From Diacronema lutheri (taxonomy: Eukaryota > Haptophyta > Pavlovophyceae > Pavlovales > Pavlovaceae): DNA of 64,000 nucleotides. The notes beneath the pieces were generated by a model. It was not told the origin of the DNA. It saw nothing but the letters and a program-made list of their open reading frames with translations, and ran no database searches. Below, piece by piece: positions 7,013 through 37,435 of this stretch; position 1 is the first letter of the stretch, and each line of letters starts with the position of its first letter. Location: assembly GCA_019448385.1 (NCBI GenBank), contig JAGTXO010000035.1:310001-374000 (forward strand), written 5' to 3'. Both the position numbers and the translations under genes were made by a program.

Positions 7013-10000
7013 TGCCCCCGCCCTTCCCCCCCTCGCGAGCGCAGTATCTCAGTCATGCGCCGCACCGGAAGCAGCAGTAATCGGAGCCGCCGTTTGAGAC
7101 GGTCGTAAGCTCGCGGCCGACACTGCCCGAGCGCATCAGCTCGTCGTATGGGATCGGCTTGGCGGGGCGCTGCACGTGCATGTAGAGCAGCCCGCCGGGC
7201 AGCATCGCGCCCTCGCCGCGCGGCTGCGAGAAGGTGGGCAGCGCGTCGCCGGCCGCGCCGGCCGCGCCGCCGCCGGCCGCGCCGCCGGCCGCGCCGAGCG
7301 CGCCGGCCGAGAGCGGGTCGAGGAGGGGAAGAAGCGAGTGCGCGACCTTGACGCCGACATCGCGCTTGTCGTAGTGCTCCAGGTTGATCCCGCCACGGTA
7401 TCGCCTCGCAAACTTGGTGAGCGGCCCCGCCGCGTAGATGGAGGGATCCGACGTGCGGAAGCGCGCGTCGATGACCAGGCGGCCATCGTAGACGAGCGAA
7501 TTCGAATTGCACGCGCGAAAGATGGCGTCGTCGACGTCGGGCACGTCCGCGGTGAGTAGGAGCGCGCACGGGAGCTCGCGCTCGTGCTCGCCGTGCGCGT
7601 CGACGAGCACGACGGACGAGATGGAGCCGTCGATGCCCGCGCGCACGTCGCGCAGCGCCAGATCCTCAAGGACGGCGATGCCGAGCCGGTCGAGCGTCTC
7701 GCGCACGCGCGCGTCGACGCGCGGGTCGGCGAAGGGCGTGGGCGCGCCGGGCGGCAGCACGATGCAGAGCTTGTCCGCGTCGACGCCGCGCTCGAGCAGC
7801 GCGTTGAGCGAGCAGTACGCAGAGAGCGTCGCGCCATACACGAAGGCCGCGCAGTCGGGCAGGGCCGAGCGGCGCGCCCAGGCGGTCGAGCGCAAAAAGT
7901 GGTCGACGTCGCGCTCGACCTGGCGGCGCGCGTGCCGGGAGCGAGGTGGATGGCGCCGCGCGCGCGCGACAGTGCAGATGTTAAACGCCCATGCAACCGC
8001 GGCGCGGGATGCGCGCGGCCACTGCGCGCGCGCCACGCGCAGTCGCGCCCGCACGCACCTGCCCCCCCGACACGGAGAAGGCGCCGCCGACGGCGCGCGA
8101 GGCCTCAGAGAGGCCGGCGAGGGTCTGGTCGTGCAACGGCGGCGCGAGCAGCAGCACGTCGTACGGCACGCGCTCGGCGCGCCCTGCGAGCTCGACGAGC
8201 TTGCGCGAGCGGTCGATGTCGGCGAGGTGCGCTCGGATCACAGTCACGCGCGCGTCGAGGCCGAGCTGGCGGAGCTCGCGGCGAGTGTAGCAGAGCGAGG
8301 CGGCGGAGAAGGCGCCGGGTGCGATTGCCGGCTCGTCGTGCGTGCCGAGCGCCGCGCTCCCGCTCCCGACGCCTTTGCCACCGTCGTCGCGCGCCGGCTG
8401 CGCGGGCAGAGCCGTTCCGTCTGGAAGCCCGTACGGTGCGACGAGCGTGATGGAGGAGAAATGGAGGTAGGGCACGGCGAGGAGCGTCTCGAGAAAGGCG
8501 ATGGAAGTGTCGCGCCCACCCACCACCACGATCCGCACATTGTTCTGGATCTTTGGCTCCGAGATCAGCTTGCGCGTGAGGAAGAGCAACGCGCTGTCCG
8601 GAGGCGCGCCGTCCGAGCCGCCGAGCGCGAGCGCGTCCGCGCGCGCCGCGCGCGCGAGGTGCTGGGGCAGCTGGATCTGGCGGCGCGGGCGGACCTCGAC
8701 AAACTGCGCCGCGATATCGGGCAGCGGCGCGTCGTGCCGCAGCTGCAGGTAGAGCACCGACTTGCGCGCGCGCCGAAAGACCTCCTTGAGCACGAAACGG
8801 CTGCTGCTGTGAAAGACCGGGTTGATCACGAAATGCTCGAGCTGCGCGTGCGCGCTCGAGTCATGCTCGGAGAAGAGGATGTAATCCTCGAGCGAGTAGT
8901 GCCGCTTCAGGCTCTCCACGTCCACGCCTTGCTCCGTCACCGTCGCCACGCCAACGACCTGCGCCTGGCACTCGACGACGAACGCGACCGACGGCGGCCG
9001 CCCATACCCGCCACCGATCACCAACCGAGACGTCGCCTCGACCGCCTCGACGATGGCCGCCGAGTCGTGCAGCCCCTCGCAGAGCGCGCGCGCGCCGGCC
9101 ACGTCCGCCGACCGCGCCTCGCGCACCGTTAGCTGCCCGCCGAGCGCCGCACGATGGAAGACGTAGAGCACGTGCCCGAACGAGGACGACGACGCCCCCG
9201 CCCCGCCATCGTCGCCGTCGCCGCCGCGGTTGTCGCCGCCGCGGTTGTCGCCGCCGTCGCCGCCGTCGGCGGGCGAGCGCGCGTGCACCATCGTGAAGAG
9301 CGAGAGCAGCCCAAACTCGGCCGTCACGTGCGGCAGCGTCACGATGCAGTACTCGAGCCCCGGGAAGAGCGCGAACGCTGGCCGGAGCAGGTCGATCGCC
9401 CGCGACTCGGCGGATTCATCGAGGCAGAAGAGCGTGATGGCGAAGGCGTTGGGCAGCCAGCTGGAGCGGTCGATTGATACGAACGCGTCGTCTGCGTCGG
9501 CTTCGCCACCGCCGTCGCCCGCCTCGCCGAGATCCTCGCCGCCCTCGCGCGCGCGCGCGCTCGCACCTGCGCGCGCGCGCGCGCGCGCGGGCTGCGCCGG
9601 CGCGTCCGGGTCGGGGCGGAGCAGCCCGTCAAAGGGCTCGAGCTCAAAGTAGTCGTCAAGCATGCGCACGTCGATCTCCGACGTGAGCGCGAGCAGGCCG
9701 ACCGCGTGGCCGTCGGCCTCCGCGACGAGCGCCTGCGACTTTGCGTCCTGCGCTGAGATCACCTCGGCGAGGAAGAACTCGCCGTAGCGCGCCTGCAGGA
9801 CCTCGGACTGCTGGTTGAAGACGGGCACAAGGTCGTCATGGTCCTCCACACGCGCCGCGCGCACGAGCAGGTTTGGAATGTAGAGGCCGCGCGGGCACGC
9901 GTGCACCTTGCACGGTGGCTCGGCCGAGCCGTCGAGATGGGGCACGTACTCAAAGGACTGGCGCATGGGCGGGAAGAGGCGCTGGTCCACGGGGAGTGCA

Positions 10001-10661
10001 AGGAGGAAGACGTCAATCTCAGGCAGCGTCGTGAACGCCGTGCGCAGAATGTTCTCCGAGACCTCCGCCTCGTAGAGGTGGTCCGCGATGAAGAAGGCGA
10101 GCCACAGCGAATTTTGAGACTGCGCGCGAGCGGGCGGCAGGTCCGGCGGGTCCGGCGCGGCGTGCGGCGGACGCTCTGGGCGCGCGTGAGAGCGCGCACG
10201 CACCATCGCACGCGCGACTGCCACGCGCGCGCGCGCGCGCCGCTCTTCACGCGGCGCGGCGGCCGCGCCGCACGGTGAACTCAGGGTGGCCGTGCGTCTC
10301 CTCCAGCCATTCGGGCCATGTTGTGGGGTCGACGGAGGGCGTGAGCGCGGGGTAGTCGAAGAAGGCGGCGTAGCCGAGCACTTTGCCCTCGCCATCCACC
10401 GCCGTGATCCCGAGCGTCGCATTCTCGCTGCGGCAGGGCGGCGGAGCGGCGCCGCGCGGCGAGCGGGTGAAGCGCGCGCCGCGCGGTGAGGTCGCGCGGC
10501 GTCCGCCGGCGAGGCGGCGCGGCGCGCGCGCACATCATGTTGGTGACATCGAAGCGGCCAAAGCGCTTGTTCAGGATGTGCGCCTCGTCGCCGATGAGCG
10601 CGAGGATTGCCGGGTGGTCGTCAAACTCGGAGCGCCGGACGAACACCCCGGTCGCTGCCAT
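5961..10661 (-). CDS. CFAP61: Cilia- and flagella-associated protein 61 (7 exons)
   Basis: CFAP61 is a radial-spoke/calmodulin-associated axonemal protein of motile cilia. Exons are 10661-10534, 10427-10274, 10119-8059, 7919-7066, 6759-6630, 6465-6373 and 6224-5961. Every junction keeps phase with GT-AG borders and gives 1227 residues, close to the human length. Landmarks in order: N-terminal GNAT-like region with the conserved YAAFFDYP, VRAARVEDHDDLVPVF near residue 190, VRPRRQIQLP near 580, a Rossmann strand RIVVVGG near 625, LVYDGRLVIDARF near 970, and the C-terminal YLGESPLEVSNMKQL and FHDRF blocks. The start MAATGVFVRR is the only Met in the open stretch that leaves a short, family-like N-terminus. 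It is divergent from the DsbA-like gene, with 37 bp between starts. Introns carry long C and G runs. Confidence 0.93.
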
Positions 10662-10698
10662 CGCGGGTGTAACCGCCGCACGCGCGCGACGGCACGCC
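10662..10698. promoter_or_regulatory. 37-bp bidirectional gap between two start codons
   Basis: The ATGs of CFAP61 (10661, minus) and the DsbA-like gene (10699, plus) are separated by 37 bases. No TATA box is visible, so transcription must start inside the opposite gene's leader or body. The gap also argues for the chosen starts. Confidence 0.5.
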
Positions 10699-11511
10699 AT
10701 GGGCTCGATCCGCTCGACAATTCGCGCGTTCTCGACGTCGAGCAGCCTTCGCGTGATCGTCGAGCTGGTGAGCGACACGATGTGACCCAATGGCTTCATC
10801 GGCAAGCGCCACTTGCGCACGGCGATGGAGCGCGTGCGCCGCGAGCCGCTCGTGCCCGGCCGGCCGCTCGGCTTCTCCGTCGTGCGCGTGCCCTTCTTCC
10901 TCGAGCCCGACTTCCCCGAGGACGAGGCGTTTTCCGAGACGAATCGCGCGCGCCTCGTGCGCAAGTGGGGCGGTGAGCGCGGCTGGCTCGAGCAGAAGCG
11001 CCGCCACCGCCTCAAGGAGCGCGCGCAGGCCGCCGGTATCGCCGAGAAAATTGACCTCGACCGCCTCGCGTCCAACACGCTCAAGTCGCACCGGCTCGTG
11101 CAGTGGGTGTCGCGCACGCACGGACTCGACGCGTCCGAGCGGCTCTACGATGCGCTCAACGAGCTGCACTTTGTGCGCGGACGCAAGCTCAACGACGCGG
11201 CGATGCTCGCGGCCGCGGCAGCCGAGCACGCGGGTGCCGATGAGGCCGCTGCGCGCGCCTACCTCGACTCGGACGCGGGGCGAGCCGAGATCGACAAGGC
11301 GCTCTTGATCGCGCGCGCGTACGGCATCACTTCGATCCCCAAGTTTGTGATCGACGGCGAGCTCCTCGTTGATGGCGCGGCGCACGCGGATGAGCACGAG
11401 GCTGTCTTCCGCAGCATCGAGAGGCGTGGCGCGGTCAGCGGGCGCGCGCTCTTTGCGCACGCGCTCGGCATCACGCCCGAGGTGCTGCACACGGGTGACG
11501 CGCTGCTTTAG
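10699..11511 (+). CDS. DsbA/FrnE-like thioredoxin-fold protein with in-frame TGA at the active site (selenoprotein candidate)
   Basis: One frame runs from ATG 10699 to TAG 11511, broken only by TGA at 10783-10785. Read through, it gives 270 residues. The first about 18 (GSIRSTIRAFSTSSSLR) look like a mitochondrial or organelle presequence, then VIVELVSDTM, then TGA, then PNGFIGKRHL. The FrnE/DsbA family has SDTxCPWCFxGK here, so the TGA falls exactly on the catalytic cysteine and would be residue 29. Downstream family marks are intact: VPFFLEP, KSHRLVQWVSR, the cis-proline ITSIPKF and VIDGELLVDGA. The second CxxC cysteine is Gly and the Trp is Asn. Selenocysteine insertion is inferred, not shown. 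Alternatives are initiation at Met 10813 without the active site, a recent mutation, or a sequencing error. No canonical SECIS was found by eye. Confidence 0.7.
10783..10785 (+). other. Candidate selenocysteine TGA codon
   Basis: This TGA replaces the first active-site cysteine codon of the DsbA/FrnE motif, with uninterrupted family homology on both sides in the same frame. TGA is used as a normal stop by other genes here (for example 834-836), so a general code change is not the explanation. Confidence 0.5.
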
Positions 11512-12095
11512 ACGCCTGCGTCTGCGAGACGCGCGCCGCACGCCTGCGTCCGCGGCCGCCGCGGGTGGGATGACGAGCCGGCTCCAAACCGCGCCGCGGG
11601 ACCCGCTCCGGTCCCGCACATGGCGCGCGGGCCGGACTCCGACGGGGGAACGGCTTTGGGCCCAACCCTCCACGCCCGCGCGGCGCGGACCTGGGGCGTC
11701 GCACGCCGTCCGGGCGCCCGGTCATTCCGCATTCGCACGCGCGCTCGCGGCCGTCAGAATCTGACTGAGTTTGTCCGACTCGCGTGACTCGTGTACTTCC
11801 GGACCGCACGGTTGATTTTGCCCGGACTGCAGGCACGTCGATTTTCCCTCACGCCAGGAAAGCGACCTGCTCGGTGAGGATCGTGCGCGGTGCCGCTCGC
11901 GCGCTCCACCGCGTCACCGGCTGGCGCAAAGCGCTGACCGGGCGGAGCGCGCACGCCGGGCGCGTGACCCTTCTCCTTGTCGCCGCCGCGCCGCGCAGAC
12001 CACTTGTAATCGGTGGCGTCCAGTTCGGCCTTCCCAGCCCGCGCGTCGCTCGTCTCCCGCTTTGCCGACTGCCCCGCCGCACGCCGCGTACCATC
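11512..12095. other. 3' UTR / intergenic region between DsbA-like gene and RPSA
   Basis: This 584-bp stretch has no supported gene. It holds a hairpin at 11561-11618, a 13-bp palindrome GTCAGAATCTGAC at 11753-11765, and the RPSA promoter, in which no TATA box is seen. Confidence 0.5.
11561..11618 (+). promoter_or_regulatory. Hairpin weakly resembling a SECIS element
   Basis: An ATGA at 11570-11573 precedes a mostly paired 11-base helix (GAGCCGGCTCC against GGGACCCGCTC, two mismatches). An AAA opens the apical loop at 11586-11588, the spacing expected of a SECIS. However, the 3' partner lacks the GA needed for the sheared G-A pairs. It is listed as the only candidate seen, not as a call. Confidence 0.15.
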
Positions 12096-13176
12096 ATGTC
12101 GAACCTGCAGTACATCTCCGAGAAGCAGAAGCACCGCGATTTCCAGATGATGCTCGCGTGCTCGACGCACCTCGGCACCAAGAACCTCGATTTCCAGATG
12201 AACCGCTACGTGTGGAAGCGCAAGGCTGACGGCATCCACATCATCAACCTCGGCAAGACGTACGACAAGCTCATGATGGCCGCGCGCATCATCGTCGGGA
12301 TCGAGCACCCGGCGGACGTGTGCGTGATCTCGGCGCGCCCCTACGGTCAGCGCTCCATCCTCAAGTACGCGCAGTACACTGGCGCGACCCCGATCGCTGG
12401 CCGCTACACGCCCGGCATGTTCACCAACCAGATCACCAAGAAGTTCATGGAGCCACGCCTCCTCATCATCACCGACCCGCGCACGGACCACCAGCCGATT
12501 GCCGAGGTGCGCGCTTGGCACGCCGCCCCTTTGCAAGCCGCACCCGCGACGCGGGCGCACAGCGCCTCGCCACTCGCCGTTACCCCCCCCCCCCCTGGAG
12601 CCTACCGCTTGCTCACCCGCACGCCGTGCCGTCACGCGCCCCCTCGCGCAGGCGGCTTACATGAACATCCCGGTGATCGCGTTCTGCGACACGGACTCGC
12701 CCGTCAAGCACGTCGACCTCGCGATCCCTGCGAACAACAAGGGCAAGCAGTCGATCGGCCTCATGTACTGGATGCTCGCGCGCGAGGTGCTGCGGCTGCG
12801 CGCGACCGTCTCGCGCTCGGTCGAGTGGGAGGTGATGGTCGACCTCTTCTTCTACCGCGACCCGGAGGAGGTGGAGCGCGAGGAGAAGGAGGCCGCCGCG
12901 CTGCGCGACGCCGCCGCCGCCGAGCCGCTGCCTGTCCAGCAGTGGGACGAGGCCGCGATGGCGACGGTGATGCCCGCCGTCGGCGCCGAGCAGTGGGTCG
13001 ACCCGGCCGTCCAGCCGGCCGCAGACAACTGGAACGCGCCGCCCGCGCAGCCCGTGCCCGTCGTCGACGCGGGCGACTCGTGGGACGCGCCCGCAGCGCC
13101 CGTGCTCCAGCCGCCCGCGCCGGGCGGCTGGGACGCGCCCGCGCCGATGCCGACGCAGGCGCCGGGCGGCTGGTGA
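12096..13176 (+). CDS. RPSA: 40S ribosomal protein SA (uS2), 2 exons
   Basis: Exon 1 (12096-12506) and exon 2 (12652-13176) are joined over a GT-AG intron with a C-run; phase is kept at [12 protein letters not shown], giving 311 residues. The uS2 core is unmistakable: [11 protein letters not shown], the [15 protein letters not shown] block, the [19 protein letters not shown] block, and [17 protein letters not shown]. It is a structural protein of the small ribosomal subunit, needed for late 40S maturation. The C-terminal tail (about residues 235-311) has repeated tryptophans next to acidic or small residues (QQWDE, EQWVD, DNWNA, DSWDA, GGWDA), as in eukaryotic RPSA but Ala/Pro-rich. The start is the first ATG in frame with the conserved N-terminus. 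Confidence 0.96.
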
Positions 13177-13420
13177 GCGCAGCGGCCAGCGCACCGTCGC
13201 GGCGTGCGCGCACGCGAGCGGCGCGCAGCGCGCTTGCCTCCAAGGGCAAGGACAGCGGAGGAGGCGAGGAGCTGCTCGGCAGTAAGGCTGAGCAGGCTCA
13301 AACGACTTTCAGGGTCGAATGCAGATGCAGCCGTTCTGTGCGCGCGTGGCGCACCGCCTCGCCGTCCGCACAGCGCGCTCGGCGCTGATCTGAAGTTGTG
13401 GCACTGTCGTACTCCAAGAC

Positions 13421-14305
13421 ATGGCGGCCGTGCGCGAGGGGAAGGTAGCGTTCATGTTCCTCACGCGCGGAGGGCTGAACGCGGAGGAGACGTGGGCCGA
13501 GTTTCTGGGCGGCGCGCCGTCAGCGCACTTTTCGCTCTACGCGCACACCAAGACGCCGCCGCCACCCTCGTCGCTCCTCTCGCGCGCGCGCATCCGCGAG
13601 CACGTGCCGACCGAGTGGGGCACCGCCTCGCTCGTGCGCGCGACACTCGCGCTGCTGCGCGCAGCGCTGACGGACGAGGAGAACGTGCGATTCGTGCTCC
13701 TGTCTGAAAGCTGCGTGCCTCTGTACCCTTTTGCACGCGTGCGCGTCGAGCTCCTCGCCGATGCGCGCGGCTGGCTGTCGCACGCGCCGACGCCGGCGTG
13801 GATGATCCACCAGAAGGGGCCGACGCGCGAGTTCGTGCGTTGGAGCGCCGCGCTGCAGCCGCTCGTGCGCACGCCCGCTGAACTGCGGAAGCAGCAGCAG
13901 TGGACCGCCTTCAGCCGCGAGCTCGCCGCGCTGTTTGTCGAGCCGGGCGCGGACCACACGGCGCTATGGGAGGCAGACGGGCTCTTCGCGCCCGACGAGC
14001 ATTACTTCGTCAGCGTCGCGGCGCACGAACTGCGACGGAGAGGGCGCGCGCCCGCAGACATGGATGCTGCCGCCTGCCTCGACCTCGTCGCGCTCAATCG
14101 CCGCCTCACCTACGTCGAGTGGGGCGTGGTTGGTAACGGGCGCGCGCCGCTGCGGCTGCACACCGTCTCTGCCGAGCTGCTCGAGCGCGCGAGGGCGGAG
14201 GGTTGCCTCTTCGTGCGCAAGATTGCGCCCGGGGCTAACCTGTCGCTACTTCGAGCGAGCTGGCGCTGCGTGCGCGGGGACAGCGTGCAGCGCGGATCAG
14301 GATGA
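13421..14305 (+). CDS. Core-2/I-branching-type glycosyltransferase (GT14, DUF266 family)
   Basis: This single-exon gene encodes 294 residues. It opens with KVAFMFLTRGGL, followed by HFSLYAHTK, then TEWGTASLVRATLALLRAAL, RFVLLSESCVPLYPFARV, KQQQWTAFSRELAALF, and DEHYFVS with LTYVEW. This is the motif order of the plant and algal DUF266 branch of GT14. Such enzymes are Golgi type II membrane proteins in plants. Here no N-terminal anchor is visible, so the protein may be soluble or have an unrecognised upstream exon. Donor and acceptor sugars cannot be deduced. Its stop lies 26 bp from the stop of the convergent LRR gene. Confidence 0.82.
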   Translation: MAAVREGKVAFMFLTRGGLNAEETWAEFLGGAPSAHFSLYAHTKTPPPPSSLLSRARIREHVPTEWGTASLVRATLALLRAALTDEENVRFVLLSESCVPLYPFARVRVELLADARGWLSHAPTPAWMIHQKGPTREFVRWSAALQPLVRTPAELRKQQQWTAFSRELAALFVEPGADHTALWEADGLFAPDEHYFVSVAAHELRRRGRAPADMDAAACLDLVALNRRLTYVEWGVVGNGRAPLRLHTVSAELLERARAEGCLFVRKIAPGANLSLLRASWRCVRGDSVQRGSG

Positions 14306-14331
14306 AAAGAGAGGAGAGGGAGCGGATTTCG

Positions 14332-17009
14332 TCAACCAGAGGCCATGCGCAGAATGGTCGGTTTGGCCTCGGCAAGGATGCCCCTCAGCTTGTGCAGCTC
14401 GTGCGTGAGGTACCGCGCCTCGTTGAGCTCCACCTCGCCGTGCGGCAGGTTGCCCAGCGGCAAAAGGCCGCCGCGCGCGCGCTCAATGTCTGCGGCCGTC
14501 TTGAGCGAGGTCGCGGGAAGCATGTCGTGGCTCGTCGCCGTGCGCTGCCGAATGCGCGAGGGCGGAGCTGGTGGAGGCGGTTCAACGTCCTGCTGAAGGC
14601 GGAGCGCGCGCAGTGTGGCCTGCACCGTCTCGGCATCGATCGGCTCGTCGACGCTGTGCACTCCACTGCGGGGAAGGGGTGGGGTGGGGTTGGGGGGGGG
14701 GGGGGGGGGACAAGGGGAGCAGCAGCAGCAGCAGCGCGGTGAGTTGATATGTTGGCGAAAAGGCGAGCTGCAAGGGGTGGGCACGTGTGCGCACGCAGCG
14801 CTTTGCGAGCGAATGCATTCGCGCGCACCTTGCGGAGGCCATGCGCTGGGCCACAGAGCGCTGCGCTGTGGCGTACAGCTGTTCGCGCCGCTCTGAGAGC
14901 GCAGCGGCAAGCTGCTTGGCGGGAAGGAAGGCGGGGAGGCCCTCAATGAGCGCGCGCACGTCGTCAGGCGCAGCCCTGCATCCGACTGCCTCGAGCGCTG
15001 CACCCGCCATGTCGCGCGACACGCCGCCGCCGCGTCCGCTCCCGCTCCCGCTCGCATCGGCGCTTTCGCCCTCGTCCCCGCCGCCGCCTTTGCCACCACC
15101 CGCGCGTAGCCCTGCCTCGCCCTCTGCCCCCCCTGGCCCATTTCCCGACCCCTCCCCCGGCCCCTCCCCCGTCGCCTCCATCGAAGTGAGGAAGGCAAGA
15201 AGGTCGCGACTTAGGTCGCCCGTGATCTGCACCGCAAGTCGCGCCCTCTCGCCGCCGGCCCGCGCGGCGGCATGGCGCAGCGACGGTCGATGCGGTATCG
15301 TCGTGAAGGGCGACCACGCGACCTCGAAGGCCACGTGCACGACCGCGAGCGCACGCGAGGAGCGAACGACGCCATCGTTATGAGTAGACGCAGCAGAGCT
15401 GCGCCGGCGGCCGCGCGGGACAGCCGCGAGCGCGTGCAGCTCGACCTGCTTCGCAAGGCGGCCGTCCACGCGCTCGCCACTGAGCAGCTGCGCACGTTCA
15501 AAATAGGGGGAGGGGAGGGCCAGGGGTCAGGGGCCAGGGGCGAGGGGCCAGGGGCGGTCGCAGGCGGCGCTATGCACGCACGCGCGCGGGCGGGCATAGC
15601 ACGCGCACGGCGTGCCGCCGCGCGGCGCCAGCACACGCCACCGCCATTCGCCTCCGCGCGCGCACCTCGGCCAGGTCCACAGAGCCGGTGGCGAGCGCGT
15701 GCTTTGAGTCAACGCCGTGCTGGTCGAGCGCGAACAGGTCGAGGCGCGCGCGGTACTCGCGACCCGTCGGCCTGCGCACGAAGCGCTTCTGCAGCAGCAC
15801 GGCGTACGCCTCCGCCTCGCGCCCCGCCGTCGCGACCTGCGCGAAGCGCCAGTCGACGTCGCCGGCGGCGAGCGCGCGCAGCTCCGCGGGCTGCGTGCGG
15901 AGTGGTTCAGTGGGGATTCCCCACAGTGAACACGAGAGGAAGACGTGCGACGCGCCCGCCGCGGCGGCGAGCTCGGCGAGCGCGGGCTCGGCGCGCATCT
16001 GCCCGAATGTCGCGAGCACGCACGGCGTGTGCCCCTTGGGCGCCGCGCGGATCGTCGCAACCGTCGCCGCGCGCGCCAGCGGCGGCAGGCCGGGCGTCGA
16101 TGCCGGCGGCTGCGCGGGTGAACTACGCGCGCCGGCGTGCGCTGCGGTGGCGGCGGCCGCGGCGTTTGGCAAGGCGGTCGTAGGCCGCGCCAAATGCGCG
16201 CCGCCACCGCCGTGCGCCGGTGCTGGCGCCGCGCCTGAGGTCGTGTAGGCATATTGAAAAGTTGGCAGACTCGCCCCATTGAGCGATTCGTGCTCCTCCC
16301 GCGCGGCGCGCGCGCGCCGGCGTGCACGGACGCGCACGTTCTCGTCGATGATCCAGCGCTCGGTGACGGAGAATGAGTGCAAAGCCTGCGGCACGGGCCG
16401 ACCCCACGGTTCGATGCGCTGGCCGAAAGCCATCTTGCGCACGATGCGCGCGGTGTCAAAGAGCTTAGCGGCGGCCGTGCGCTCGGTGGGTGCGACTGCG
16501 TGCCGGTCGAGAATCTCGAGGGCGCGGAGGCGATGGACGGTGATCGGGCGGTAATTAGTCTCTTCGGCCACGGGGTTGCCAAACAGGTTGAGGATGCGCA
16601 GTCGCGATAGCCGCTCAAGGGCACCAAGCGTGCGGTCGAGGTCGTTGATCGCATTGTTGTGGAGCAGAAGCGTCTCGAGAGAGCGCAGGTGCGGGAGGGA
16701 GCAGGACGGCGCGGCGAGCGAGGCAATACGGTTGTTATCGAGGTAGAGGGCCGTGAGCCGCGGGTTCCCGTCCAGCCCCTTTAGCTTGCTCAGCTTGTTG
16801 TCGCTCAGCCAGAGCACAGCGAGGTTTGGGAACGTGCCCATCTCCGCGCCGTCGAGCTTTTCGATGCCGCGACCGGTGAGTAACAGCTCGGTGAGCTCCT
16901 TGCGGTGCTTCCGGTTGTCACTTGCGGCCATCTCGGCGGCCGGATCGGCCGCTCTCCGCCGCGCGCTCTCGCGCGCCACCGCCTCGCTGCGCGGCTGGAC
17001 GGTGAGCAT
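14332..17009 (-). CDS. Leucine-rich-repeat protein with C-terminal extension (3 exons)
   Basis: Exons are 17009-15666, 15487-14829 and 14665-14332, with phase kept at both GT-AG introns (GTGCGC donors); the product is 778 residues, or about 752 if the Met at 16931 is used. Residues about 38-190 hold five to six SDS22-type LRRs (LAVLWLSDNKLSKLKGL, LTALYLDNNRIASL, LETLLLHNNAINDL, LRILNLFGNPV), capped by an LRRcap-like YRPITVHRLRALEILD. A charged helical linker follows, then an Ala/Pro-rich linker, then a beta-rich region (HVFLSCSLWGIP, about residues 370-450) that may be C2-like, and a helical C-terminus. LRRs of this type are common in axonemal and centrosomal proteins, which would suit neighbouring CFAP61, but the specific family is not identified. 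Intron 2 carries a C-run on the coding strand. Confidence 0.8.
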
Positions 17010-34462: not shown

Positions 34463-36400
34463 ATGCGCGGCATGGCGGCCGGCTTGTTCGTCGCAGCGGT
34501 GGTGGGGGACGGCCAGCCATTTGCGCCCAGCGTGACACCTCTCACGAGCGTGCACACGGCCTTTTGCGCTGAATGCACCGTGAACTTTGACTGGAAGTCG
34601 CTCGGCATGTACCACTCGCACAATGCGAGCGGCATGCCCGGCCGGATCACGCGCCTCCTCGCGTGCAGCGCCGCGCAGCTCGCAACGTACAAGGGCCTCG
34701 CGCTCGGCCCGACGTTCGTGCACCCAAATTACGGCACGGGTGACATGCCCGGCTACGACCGCTCGCCCACGTACAACAAGCCCGGCTCGCTCGCGCACTG
34801 GCTGCAGGCGACGCGCATTGACGAGGACTATATCCTCTATGTCGATGCCGACATGCTCCTCCGCCGTCCGATCGACGTGCTCGCGATGGGCGCGCGGCGG
34901 GGCACGGTCGTCTCCGAGCGTGTTGGCTACCTCGAAGTTGGCATCGGCGCCGGCCTTCCCGAGCAGTTCATCAGCGCCGCGGCGGCCCAAAACTCGGCCG
35001 CCGCCGGTTGGTACCACATCCTCCACGTGGACGACGCGCGCGCCGTCGCGCCGCGCTGGCTGCACTTCTGCCGGCAGGTGCGGCAGCATCCGGAGAGATA
35101 TTGGGCGATCCCTGGCCGCTCCAACTTGACCGCGTCCATCCCGACAGGCGACGCCTACGTGACCTTTGGAGGCGTGCCTTGGATAGCCGAGATGTATGGC
35201 TACGTGCTCGCCGCCGCAGAGCTCGGGCTAAGGCACGTGCTCACCGACGGCGTCGTCGTATATTCGGACGACGCGGGCGCTGCTACAGGCGCCGCCGCTG
35301 GCCGCGCCGAGCCGTCCATCATCCACTACGGGCTCCACTGCTACGTCGAGCGAGGACCATCCGCGAGCAAATATCATTTCACCAAGTACGCATTCTCCGG
35401 CTTTGACGTGCTCGCGTGCGGCGGCCGGCTGATCCCGACGCCACCGCAGCCGACGGCGACCGAGGCGTTGTGTGTCGAGACCGTCGAGACGCTCAACGAC
35501 GCGCTGTGCGCCTACTACAAGCGCGCGTGCTCGATGCCCGTCGAGTGCCCGCAGCATCAGCGTGTGCTGCCCGCGCCGTGTGTTGACAAGGCGGACGGGC
35601 CGCAATGCGCGAGCTGGGCGAAGAGCGGCGAGTGCGAGCGGAACAAGCCATTCATGCTCACCCAGTGCCGCCGGAGCTGCGCCGCGTGCATCGACGGCCC
35701 GGTCGCCGCGCCGGCGGTGGGCGCGGTGGCCGTCGCCGCAACCGTCGCCGTAGCCGCCGCGCAGCCGCGCATTGCGCGCACACCGCAGCCTGAGCGCTTG
35801 AGCGAGCACATCGCGTCGCTTTCGGCAACAGCGTCGCCTGCCACAGTCGCCCATCCTGCGCCCGCGCAGCCGCAGCGTCTAGCGACGGGCGCGGGTCCAC
35901 GGCCGCTGGAAGGCATCGACGCGCACGAGCGCTTTGAGGCGGTCAGCTCGCCCTTGCCCGCGGCTCGCGCGCGCCTTGGCTCAGGCACCGGCGCCGATGC
36001 GCAGCGCGACAGCCGTGCGCGCGTGCGTGACGCGCTCGTGTCGCTGCGTGCGGGCGGAGTGCGCGGGGTGGGCGGGCGGTTGAGGCCGTTTGTGGGGGCC
36101 AGCGCGTCGCTCAACGTGCAGACGGGCGCCGAGCTAGTCAGTGGCGTGGTCGGTGCGTGGGCGCTGCTCCTCGGCCTGCTGTGCGCCGCGTGCGTGCGCT
36201 GGTCGGCGCGCAGGCGCAGACGGCGCGCGGCGGTCGCCTGCAACGCTCTCTCCTTTCCCGTGTCCAACAACGGGCACGAGGCGGCCAGCGCCAAGGGTCC
36301 GCCGCTGAGTGCGCGCGAGCGGCGGCGCTCGCGGCATGGCGCGGTGCACCCGCCAACCGGCGACGCGCACACGGAGTACGACTCGTCGCATGACGACTGA
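34463..36400 (+). CDS. SERGT1: SERGT1-like peptidyl-serine alpha-galactosyltransferase with ShKT domain
   Basis: This single-exon gene encodes 645 residues. A short hydrophobic N-terminus is followed by the plant/green-algal SERGT1 signature: HTAFCAECTVNFDWKSLG, GRITRLLACS, YNKPGSLAHWL, and a DxD-type center YILYVDADMLLRRPID (about residue 125), then WYHILHVDDARAVAPRWLHF and IIHYGLHC. These enzymes add galactose to serines of extensin-type proteins in the ER/Golgi. A ShKT six-cysteine domain follows (CVDKADGPQCASWAKSGEC ... CRRSCAAC, about 372-410), as in algal homologues. After an Ala/Pro linker, one membrane segment (VVGAWALLLGLLCAACV, about 560-580) precedes a basic tail, giving an unusual C-terminal anchor. 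Function is by family similarity. Confidence 0.87.
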   Translation: MRGMAAGLFVAAVVGDGQPFAPSVTPLTSVHTAFCAECTVNFDWKSLGMYHSHNASGMPGRITRLLACSAAQLATYKGLALGPTFVHPNYGTGDMPGYDRSPTYNKPGSLAHWLQATRIDEDYILYVDADMLLRRPIDVLAMGARRGTVVSERVGYLEVGIGAGLPEQFISAAAAQNSAAAGWYHILHVDDARAVAPRWLHFCRQVRQHPERYWAIPGRSNLTASIPTGDAYVTFGGVPWIAEMYGYVLAAAELGLRHVLTDGVVVYSDDAGAATGAAAGRAEPSIIHYGLHCYVERGPSASKYHFTKYAFSGFDVLACGGRLIPTPPQPTATEALCVETVETLNDALCAYYKRACSMPVECPQHQRVLPAPCVDKADGPQCASWAKSGECERNKPFMLTQCRRSCAACIDGPVAAPAVGAVAVAATVAVAAAQPRIARTPQPERLSEHIASLSATASPATVAHPAPAQPQRLATGAGPRPLEGIDAHERFEAVSSPLPAARARLGSGTGADAQRDSRARVRDALVSLRAGGVRGVGGRLRPFVGASASLNVQTGAELVSGVVGAWALLLGLLCAACVRWSARRRRRRAAVACNALSFPVSNNGHEAASAKGPPLSARERRRSRHGAVHPPTGDAHTEYDSSHDD

Positions 36401-36444
36401 CTTGCTGAAATCTCTCAGTCGGACGGGGGTCGTCAGTCGTCAGC

Positions 36445-37435
36445 ATGGCGATCGTGACGGCGGAGGCCGACCCTTTCGCTTCGGTCGTGTCGGAGATGAA
36501 GACGTCGATGCCAAAGGGCGAGGACATCGTGCGGAGCGCGGCCATCCCGGCGCCGTCTGCTGCTTTGCGTGGAACGCCGCCAACGCCCGCGCCCTCCAAG
36601 CTAGCGCCTGCGCCAAGCGTGGCGGGCGCAAAGCTCGCGGCGCACGCGCACGCGCTCGCCGCGAGCGGAGCGTTCGATGCCGAGGATTTCCAACGGCGCG
36701 CGTCGGCGCTGTTAACGCTCGTGAGCACGCGCACGGCTATTGTTGCTCGCCAGCACCACGCGCTCAAGCGCATGCAGCTCGAGATTGGCGCGCTGCATGG
36801 GCCGCAGCGCACGACCGTTGAGGAGCTCCGCCAACGCCTCTCCGCGCTGAGCGCCGAGGTCGAGGCGGCGCGGCAGGCGTTTGAGGCGGCGAAGCGGGAA
36901 AAGGCGGGTGCCGAAGCGCGCGTCACCGAGCTTTCCGACATGAAGGAGGCGCTCATCGAACGGCTGACGGCGCTCCTCGCCGAGACCGAGGCGGCAAAGG
37001 CGCGCGCGATCGAAACCCAACCCCCCCCCTCCCCCCCCCCCCCCCCCAACACACACACACACACAAGGCCACGATGGGACCATCCGCCAGCGTGCCGCGC
37101 ACATGGCGTGCTCCCTTTCTTCGGGTGGCAGAGGCCGCCGCCCGCCTGACCACCCCCAACCCCCGTCGTTGCAGGTGCGAAAGATTGAAGAGCTGATGGG
37201 CTCACTCGAGACGCTCGACGAGGACGCGCTCAACTCGCAGCCGGAGGTGATGGCGCGTACGGCCGCGGCCGCTGCGGAGGCCGTACGTCGAGGCGGCGCC
37301 GTGGGCTCGAGTTCGACTGATGCGGCTCTGAGCAAGAGCGCAGCGGCGGCTGGGGGGCAACGCTCGGCGGACGCCCACGCGCGAACAGCCGTGCCGCCGC
37401 TCGAGGAGAGTGCGCCCGCGTTCGACGGCTTCTGA
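36445..37435 (+). CDS. Small coiled-coil protein (2 exons, GC-AG intron)
   Basis: Exon 1 (36445-36999) and exon 2 (37175-37435) are joined by a GC-AG intron (AAAG|GCGCGC...TTGCAG|GTGCG), keeping phase as ETEAAK-VRKIEEL; the product is 271 residues. No GT donor in the vicinity preserves the coiled coil. Residues about 70-200 form one continuous coiled coil (QHHALKRMQLEIGAL, ELRQRLSALSAEVEAA), and the C-terminus is Ala/Ser-rich. The intron contains C-runs and a CA repeat. The family is not recognised; a flagellar or centrosomal role would be typical of such proteins but is not shown. It starts 44 bp after the SERGT1-like stop on the same strand. Confidence 0.75.

Follow-up and report, generated by a model that had tools for sequence, protein, structure and literature searches.

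Does the TGA codon at the catalytic site of a DsbA/FrnE-like gene in the haptophyte Diacronema lutheri end translation, or does it specify selenocysteine (Sec)? The gene lies in a window of 64,000 nucleotides (contig JAGTXO010000035.1, positions 310,001 to 374,000), which is the whole stretch of DNA that was analysed and to which the coordinates in Table 1 refer. An initial annotation, made from the sequence of the window, had proposed that the TGA stands in the place of the first cysteine of a CxxC motif and is read as Sec.

Table 1. Features of the candidate locus and its neighbours, in window coordinates.
Feature	Position	Strand	Basis and remarks
Candidate Sec-containing DsbA/FrnE-like gene	10699..11511	+	Read as one exon; 270 aa, then TAG; Pfam DSBA, 4.1e-17; PDB FrnE, 1.7e-9
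TGA, candidate Sec codon; residue 29, catalytic first Cys site	10783..10785	+	Cys in relatives; TGA in the second FrnE gene
Presequence-like N-terminus MGSIRSTIRAFSTSSSLR	10699..10752	+	Possible organelle targeting, judged from composition
Putative U-P-N-G redox motif; Gly32 (10792-10794) in place of the resolving Cys	10783..10794	+	Second Cys in 81/81 aligned relatives
Conserved thioredoxin-fold proline, Pro214 in TSIPKF	11338..11340	+	Invariant in alignments
SECIS-like element	11570..11643	+	ATGAC 11570-11574; helix II 11575-11584 with 11629-11639; unpaired AAA 11586-11588; CGAC 11640-11643; long apical hairpin
Divergent CFAP61 gene	7981..10661	-	Extent and start approximate; CFAP61_N domain; ATG 10661 linked by eye
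Ribosomal protein uS2/RPSA, next gene	12096..13176	+	Pfam Ribosomal_S2 on 12096-12524; second exon by eye; TGA stop

Apart from its terminal stop, a TAG at 11511, the forward-strand frame at 10699-11511 holds a single stop codon, the TGA at codon 29, which is followed by 241 open codons with normal codon use. When Sec is replaced by cysteine, the Pfam DSBA domain runs through the TGA, from residue 21 to residue 231 (E 4.1e-17; 63 bits, above the curated cut-off of 25.6), and the frame is thus conserved on both sides of this codon, as the initial annotation had stated. The match was also recovered, with E 1.1e-13, in a six-frame search of the genome (103 contigs, 43,492,796 bases) in which TGA was read through, while a search of NCBIfam returned one match only, far below its cut-off (23.6 vs 190 bits). 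The codons ahead of the TGA (1-28) look coding: their GC3 is 0.893 vs 0.892 for the remainder of the frame, their codon score is the highest among the three frames, and this score lies at the 96th percentile among all 28-codon windows of the forward strand. The GC content of the window is about 69-75%, and that given for the D. lutheri assembly is 73.25% (PMC8379373).

A truncated protein could instead start at the next in-frame ATG, 40 nt beyond the TGA, which would then sit in the 5' leader; this ATG lies at 10825 and not, as had been noted before, at 10813. Such a protein would miss the start of the domain together with the active site, and both the coding character of codons 1-28 and the alignment of the residues immediately before the TGA with the family argue against it, so that we hold this reading to be highly implausible. 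Compared with a second FrnE gene of the same genome, the N-terminus of the candidate is longer by 11 residues in the alignment; going by the N-terminus alone, the product is possibly imported into an organelle.

The surroundings of the gene bear on its start and on the general meaning of TGA. On the minus strand, the frame at 7984-10620 contains the CFAP61 domain (PF16092, E 4.1e-48), and an ATG at 10661 lies 37 bp from the candidate start at 10699. The divergent CFAP61 gene that had been proposed here therefore stands as far as its domain and the distance are concerned, whereas the 46-residue piece behind the ATG matches no family, and taking 10661 as the CFAP61 start is a reading by eye. Two downstream frames on the forward strand end in TGA, at 13176 and 14305; TGA is therefore not generally reassigned and acts, as had been assumed, as a normal stop elsewhere.

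In order to place the TGA within the family, we built an alignment of the candidate, the 80 best among 504 bacterial relatives from a profile search, and the second FrnE gene, in which C was written for its TGA; two viral-contig loci from the same profile search were excluded. Cysteine occupies the TGA position in 80/80 of these best bacterial relatives, a count that is partly forced, since the bacterial loci had been selected with two DNA patterns, one of which required the first Cys. Neither pattern required the second Cys, and its presence at the fourth motif position in all 81 aligned relatives (CPWC in 62, CPFC in 19) is a count free of this constraint; the candidate has Gly there. Both halves of the motif, the TGA at the first Cys and the Gly at the second, are thus as first described. 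The candidate matches 32 of the 43 positions conserved at more than 75% if its TGA is scored as Cys; the conserved proline is among these matches. This proline, Pro214, is invariant in the alignments and corresponds to the DSBA family proline that faces the active site. The proline at the active site of the thioredoxin fold adopts the cis form, and by analogy Pro214 would do so too.

The best matches by sequence among solved structures are Deinococcus FrnE entries (E 1.7e-9, residues 14-228). The mark of the dithiol enzymes is a resolving Cys within CxxC or UxxC; the candidate has Gly at position 4 and not a single Cys codon in its ORF. As judged from its sequence, it is a member of the DsbA/FrnE fold family that is set outside the dithiol enzymes.

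The branch of the candidate in an 82-row tree measures 3.36, vs a median of 0.35. Searches for close relatives matched 7 stretches in viral contigs and 151 in genome contigs, with no true relative among them, and the UPNG pattern with TGA had no match in viral contigs. The long branch and the missing second Cys could also signal relaxed constraint, and both would suit a decaying pseudogene in which TGC or TGT at the catalytic codon mutated to a TGA stop while the other Cys of the motif drifted to Gly. Decay is difficult to reconcile with the long run of normally used codons after the TGA, with the well-conserved family positions that have been retained and with the SECIS-like element downstream, and we regard a pseudogene as very improbable.

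This SECIS-like element starts 58 nt past the TAG stop, and its helix II comprises 10 pairs with one bulge. The initial annotation had named a search with SECIS models downstream of the gene as a check of the selenoprotein reading, and the outcome is in its favour: a home-made finder supports the element. The Rfam model SECIS_1 has no match at the locus. Under a lax threshold Rfam returned six matches in 10600-14500, all under the gathering scores of their families and none to SECIS_1; over the whole genome SECIS_1 gave zero matches, even beside clear selenoprotein genes. The finder looks for ATGA, a stem of 9-13 nt (later 9-14), AA, a bulge-tolerant helix II score and GA, and its first version also accepted GTGA in place of ATGA. 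The element scores 22 in both versions, a score that is not blind because the element had been spotted by eye before the finder was written. When the candidate's 584-nt 3' region was shuffled with its dinucleotide composition kept, 3 of 4000 shuffles attained this score; shuffling the window sequence gave 20 such matches in 2.56 Mb, or about 0.005 per 584 nt. Within the 64-kb window, on both strands, the score is unique to this element.

The predicted fold depends on the length of the sequence considered. In contexts of at least 141 nt helix II is part of the minimum-energy fold; eight of its pairs have probabilities of 0.81-0.95, and the final two 0.52-0.55. An alternative fold is better by 0.7 kcal/mol in a context of 105 nt, where the helix II pair probabilities are 0.05-0.12, and in a context of 94 nt it beats the fold with helix II enforced by 6.2 kcal/mol. 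As a whole the region folds with an unexceptional energy (z -0.62, -0.79 and -1.71, depending on where its ends are set), helix I appears weak by eye, and the span from ATGA to GA is 71 nt, vs 46-51 nt for all but one of the eight other elements found in the genome. Elsewhere in the window, a second SECIS-like sequence (36390-36457, forward strand) scores 19; it was discarded as a probable chance match, because no selenoprotein frame split by a TGA could be recognised ahead of it.

The genome is clearly equipped for the use of selenocysteine. Our search for the machinery took in tRNA-Sec and SecS, and it found SecS and also nine tandem tRNA-Sec(UCA) genes (G000:C19:159090-160638), which are spaced by 181-184 bp and seven of which have an identical score. 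Since tRNA-Sec is usually single-copy, nine is an unusual number. Twelve further loci of selenoprotein families carry one in-frame TGA: one FrnE, three Rdx-family, two GPx, four Sep15/SelM-type and two MsrA loci, where an inverted-copy pair on contig C3 was entered once. The first finder, with ATGA and AA required, placed an element scoring at least 20 after 6 of these 12 loci, and allowing a 14-nt stem added two, giving 8/12; among eight TGA-free control genes, each scanned from the match as far as 1.5 kb past it, the wider finder detected none at a score of at least 14. The loci without a strict element are the GPx locus on C27 and the Sep15/SelM-type loci on C76, C25 and C88, for all of which a relaxed AA or ATGA rule gives candidates (at C88 GTGA, score 26) that we left uncounted. 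Seven SECIS-like stretches of other genes were aligned; judged by eye, the alignment was poor in the 3' halves, and for this reason a covariance model was not built.

Two further observations concern these families. The MsrA pair (G000:C3:331119-332221) consists of inverted copies with identical scores, an in-frame TGA each and an identical SECIS-like element, and represents either a true inverted duplication or an assembly palindrome. One Rdx-family match (G000:C4:301780-302022) is free of TGA, while the three Rdx-family loci elsewhere have it.

The FrnE locus among the twelve (G000:C79:48972-49684) is the second FrnE gene used in the alignment. It reads SDVV-U-P-F-C-LLGKR, and its TGA falls at the alignment position of the candidate's TGA. 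Like the candidate, it is followed by a SECIS-like element with a long apical arm, here with an ATGA-to-GA span of 86 nt; unlike the candidate, it retains the second Cys (U-P-F-C) and has an intron, as the predicted splice suggests. The two genes do not group in the tree, but its forks are weak and each of the two sits on a long branch. Together with the SECIS-like element, the tRNA-Sec genes and SecS, the TGA of this relative lends weight to the original selenoprotein reading. It also bears on the possibility that the TGA of the candidate is a base-calling or assembly error for TGC or TGT, a concern that arises from having one genome only. An error would neither recur at the same site of the second gene nor produce a SECIS-like element, and at base level it is unlikely if the sequence analysed here is the published D. 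lutheri assembly, for which polishing with PacBio and Illumina data of high depth is described (PMC8379373); we consider its probability negligible.

What the DNA itself shows by computation is a frame with a TGA at its catalytic site, a SECIS-like fold, and genes for tRNA-Sec and SecS, and a mechanism can be proposed around these features. The ribosome would decode the UGA at 10783-10785 as selenocysteine, directed by the SECIS-like element at 11570-11643, tRNA-Sec and the usual eukaryotic factors; we regard Sec insertion at this codon as highly probable. The product would be a DsbA/FrnE-family protein that keeps the catalytic Sec and the conserved proline and is devoid of the resolving Cys. 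As the chain would have no other Cys, an internal selenenylsulfide cycle would be impossible. In a one-selenol mechanism, Sec would react with a peroxide or a mixed disulfide and then be restored by a thiol from outside the protein, for which glutathione is the likeliest candidate. Such a cycle with an external thiol is the simplest scheme, since Sec and the proline are kept and the second thiol is absent. Overall, the candidate very likely functions as a selenoprotein gene in this pavlovophyte haptophyte and encodes a mono-selenol DsbA/FrnE protein. For the glutathione-coupled chemistry we would give somewhat less than an even chance. More tentative is the picture of a Cys-free one-selenol enzyme with a DsbA fold, perhaps organellar, that would act as a glutathione-using peroxidase or deglutathionylase and in which Sec would be the only chalcogen nucleophile besides the methionines.

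Sec might also be inserted for a different purpose, namely ligand or metal binding or a role akin to that of kappa-class glutathione transferases, and not for peroxide or disulfide chemistry; this reading shares the Sec insertion with our preferred explanation. It would accommodate the absence of an internal resolving Cys, and kappa-class transferases, which combine a DsbA-like fold with the lack of a CxxC, count in its favour. The PDB sequence search with the candidate, however, returned FrnE and putative DsbA and no kappa-class entry, and selenoproteins of known function are mostly oxidoreductases (PMC2398784), so that we judge a non-redox role unlikely, though of appreciable weight.

If the one-selenol redox reading is true, a FrnE protein has become similar to glutathione peroxidases or glutaredoxins by retaining Sec and losing the resolving Cys. 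We speculate that the locus points to a route in which a dithiol oxidoreductase sheds its resolving Cys once Sec has been acquired. Because a U-x-x-C relative shares the genome, the comparison between the two is testable. Genes of this kind probably tend to be truncated or overlooked by standard annotation.

Sec-DsbA proteins of algae and animals have been reported before, as have bacterial UxxV forms, so that neither Sec in this family nor, among bacteria, the loss of the resolving Cys is without precedent. DSBA is described as an algal selenoprotein family (PMC7539508), a Sec-containing FrnE is reported from Mamiellophyceae (PMC6627142), and Sec-DsbA with U(or C)xxC sites is reported from Micromonas, Ciona and amphioxus (PMC2874816) as well as from other marine invertebrates (PMC3473315). 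The DsbA-like selenoproteins of the Sargasso Sea are given as UxxC (PMC1088965), and the Global Ocean Sampling data list, for marine bacteria, DsbA 3 selenoproteins with UxxV, with five sequences (PMC2398784, Table 2). According to work cited in PMC2874816, DsbA with the first Cys alone still catalyses thiol-disulfide exchange. Our literature search, which had supplementary alignments and the algal selenoprotein database outside its scope, found no Cys-free U-P-N-G form in a eukaryote, and a search pairing 'Diacronema lutheri' with 'selenoprotein' found nothing; where UxxG was met together with selenocysteine, the motif denoted arsenite methyltransferases, rhodaneses and related fusions and no DsbA.

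Compared by description, the algal Sec-DsbA/FrnE proteins of Micromonas and other Mamiellophyceae share with the candidate the DsbA/FrnE family name, Sec and a eukaryotic algal host, and differ from it in having U-x-x-C, where the candidate has U-P-N-G and a Cys-free chain. The DsbA 3 proteins of the Global Ocean Sampling, likewise compared by description, resemble it in Sec, the Pfam DSBA domain and the absence of a resolving Cys, but are prokaryotic and have Val instead of Gly (PMC2398784). Deinococcus FrnE (PDB 5cnw, 5cp1 and others), the best structure match, is a CPWC dithiol protein without Sec. Set beside these systems, it is the U-P-N-G centre alone that is unusual in the predicted protein, which otherwise falls within Sec-DsbA/FrnE, an established algal selenoprotein family.
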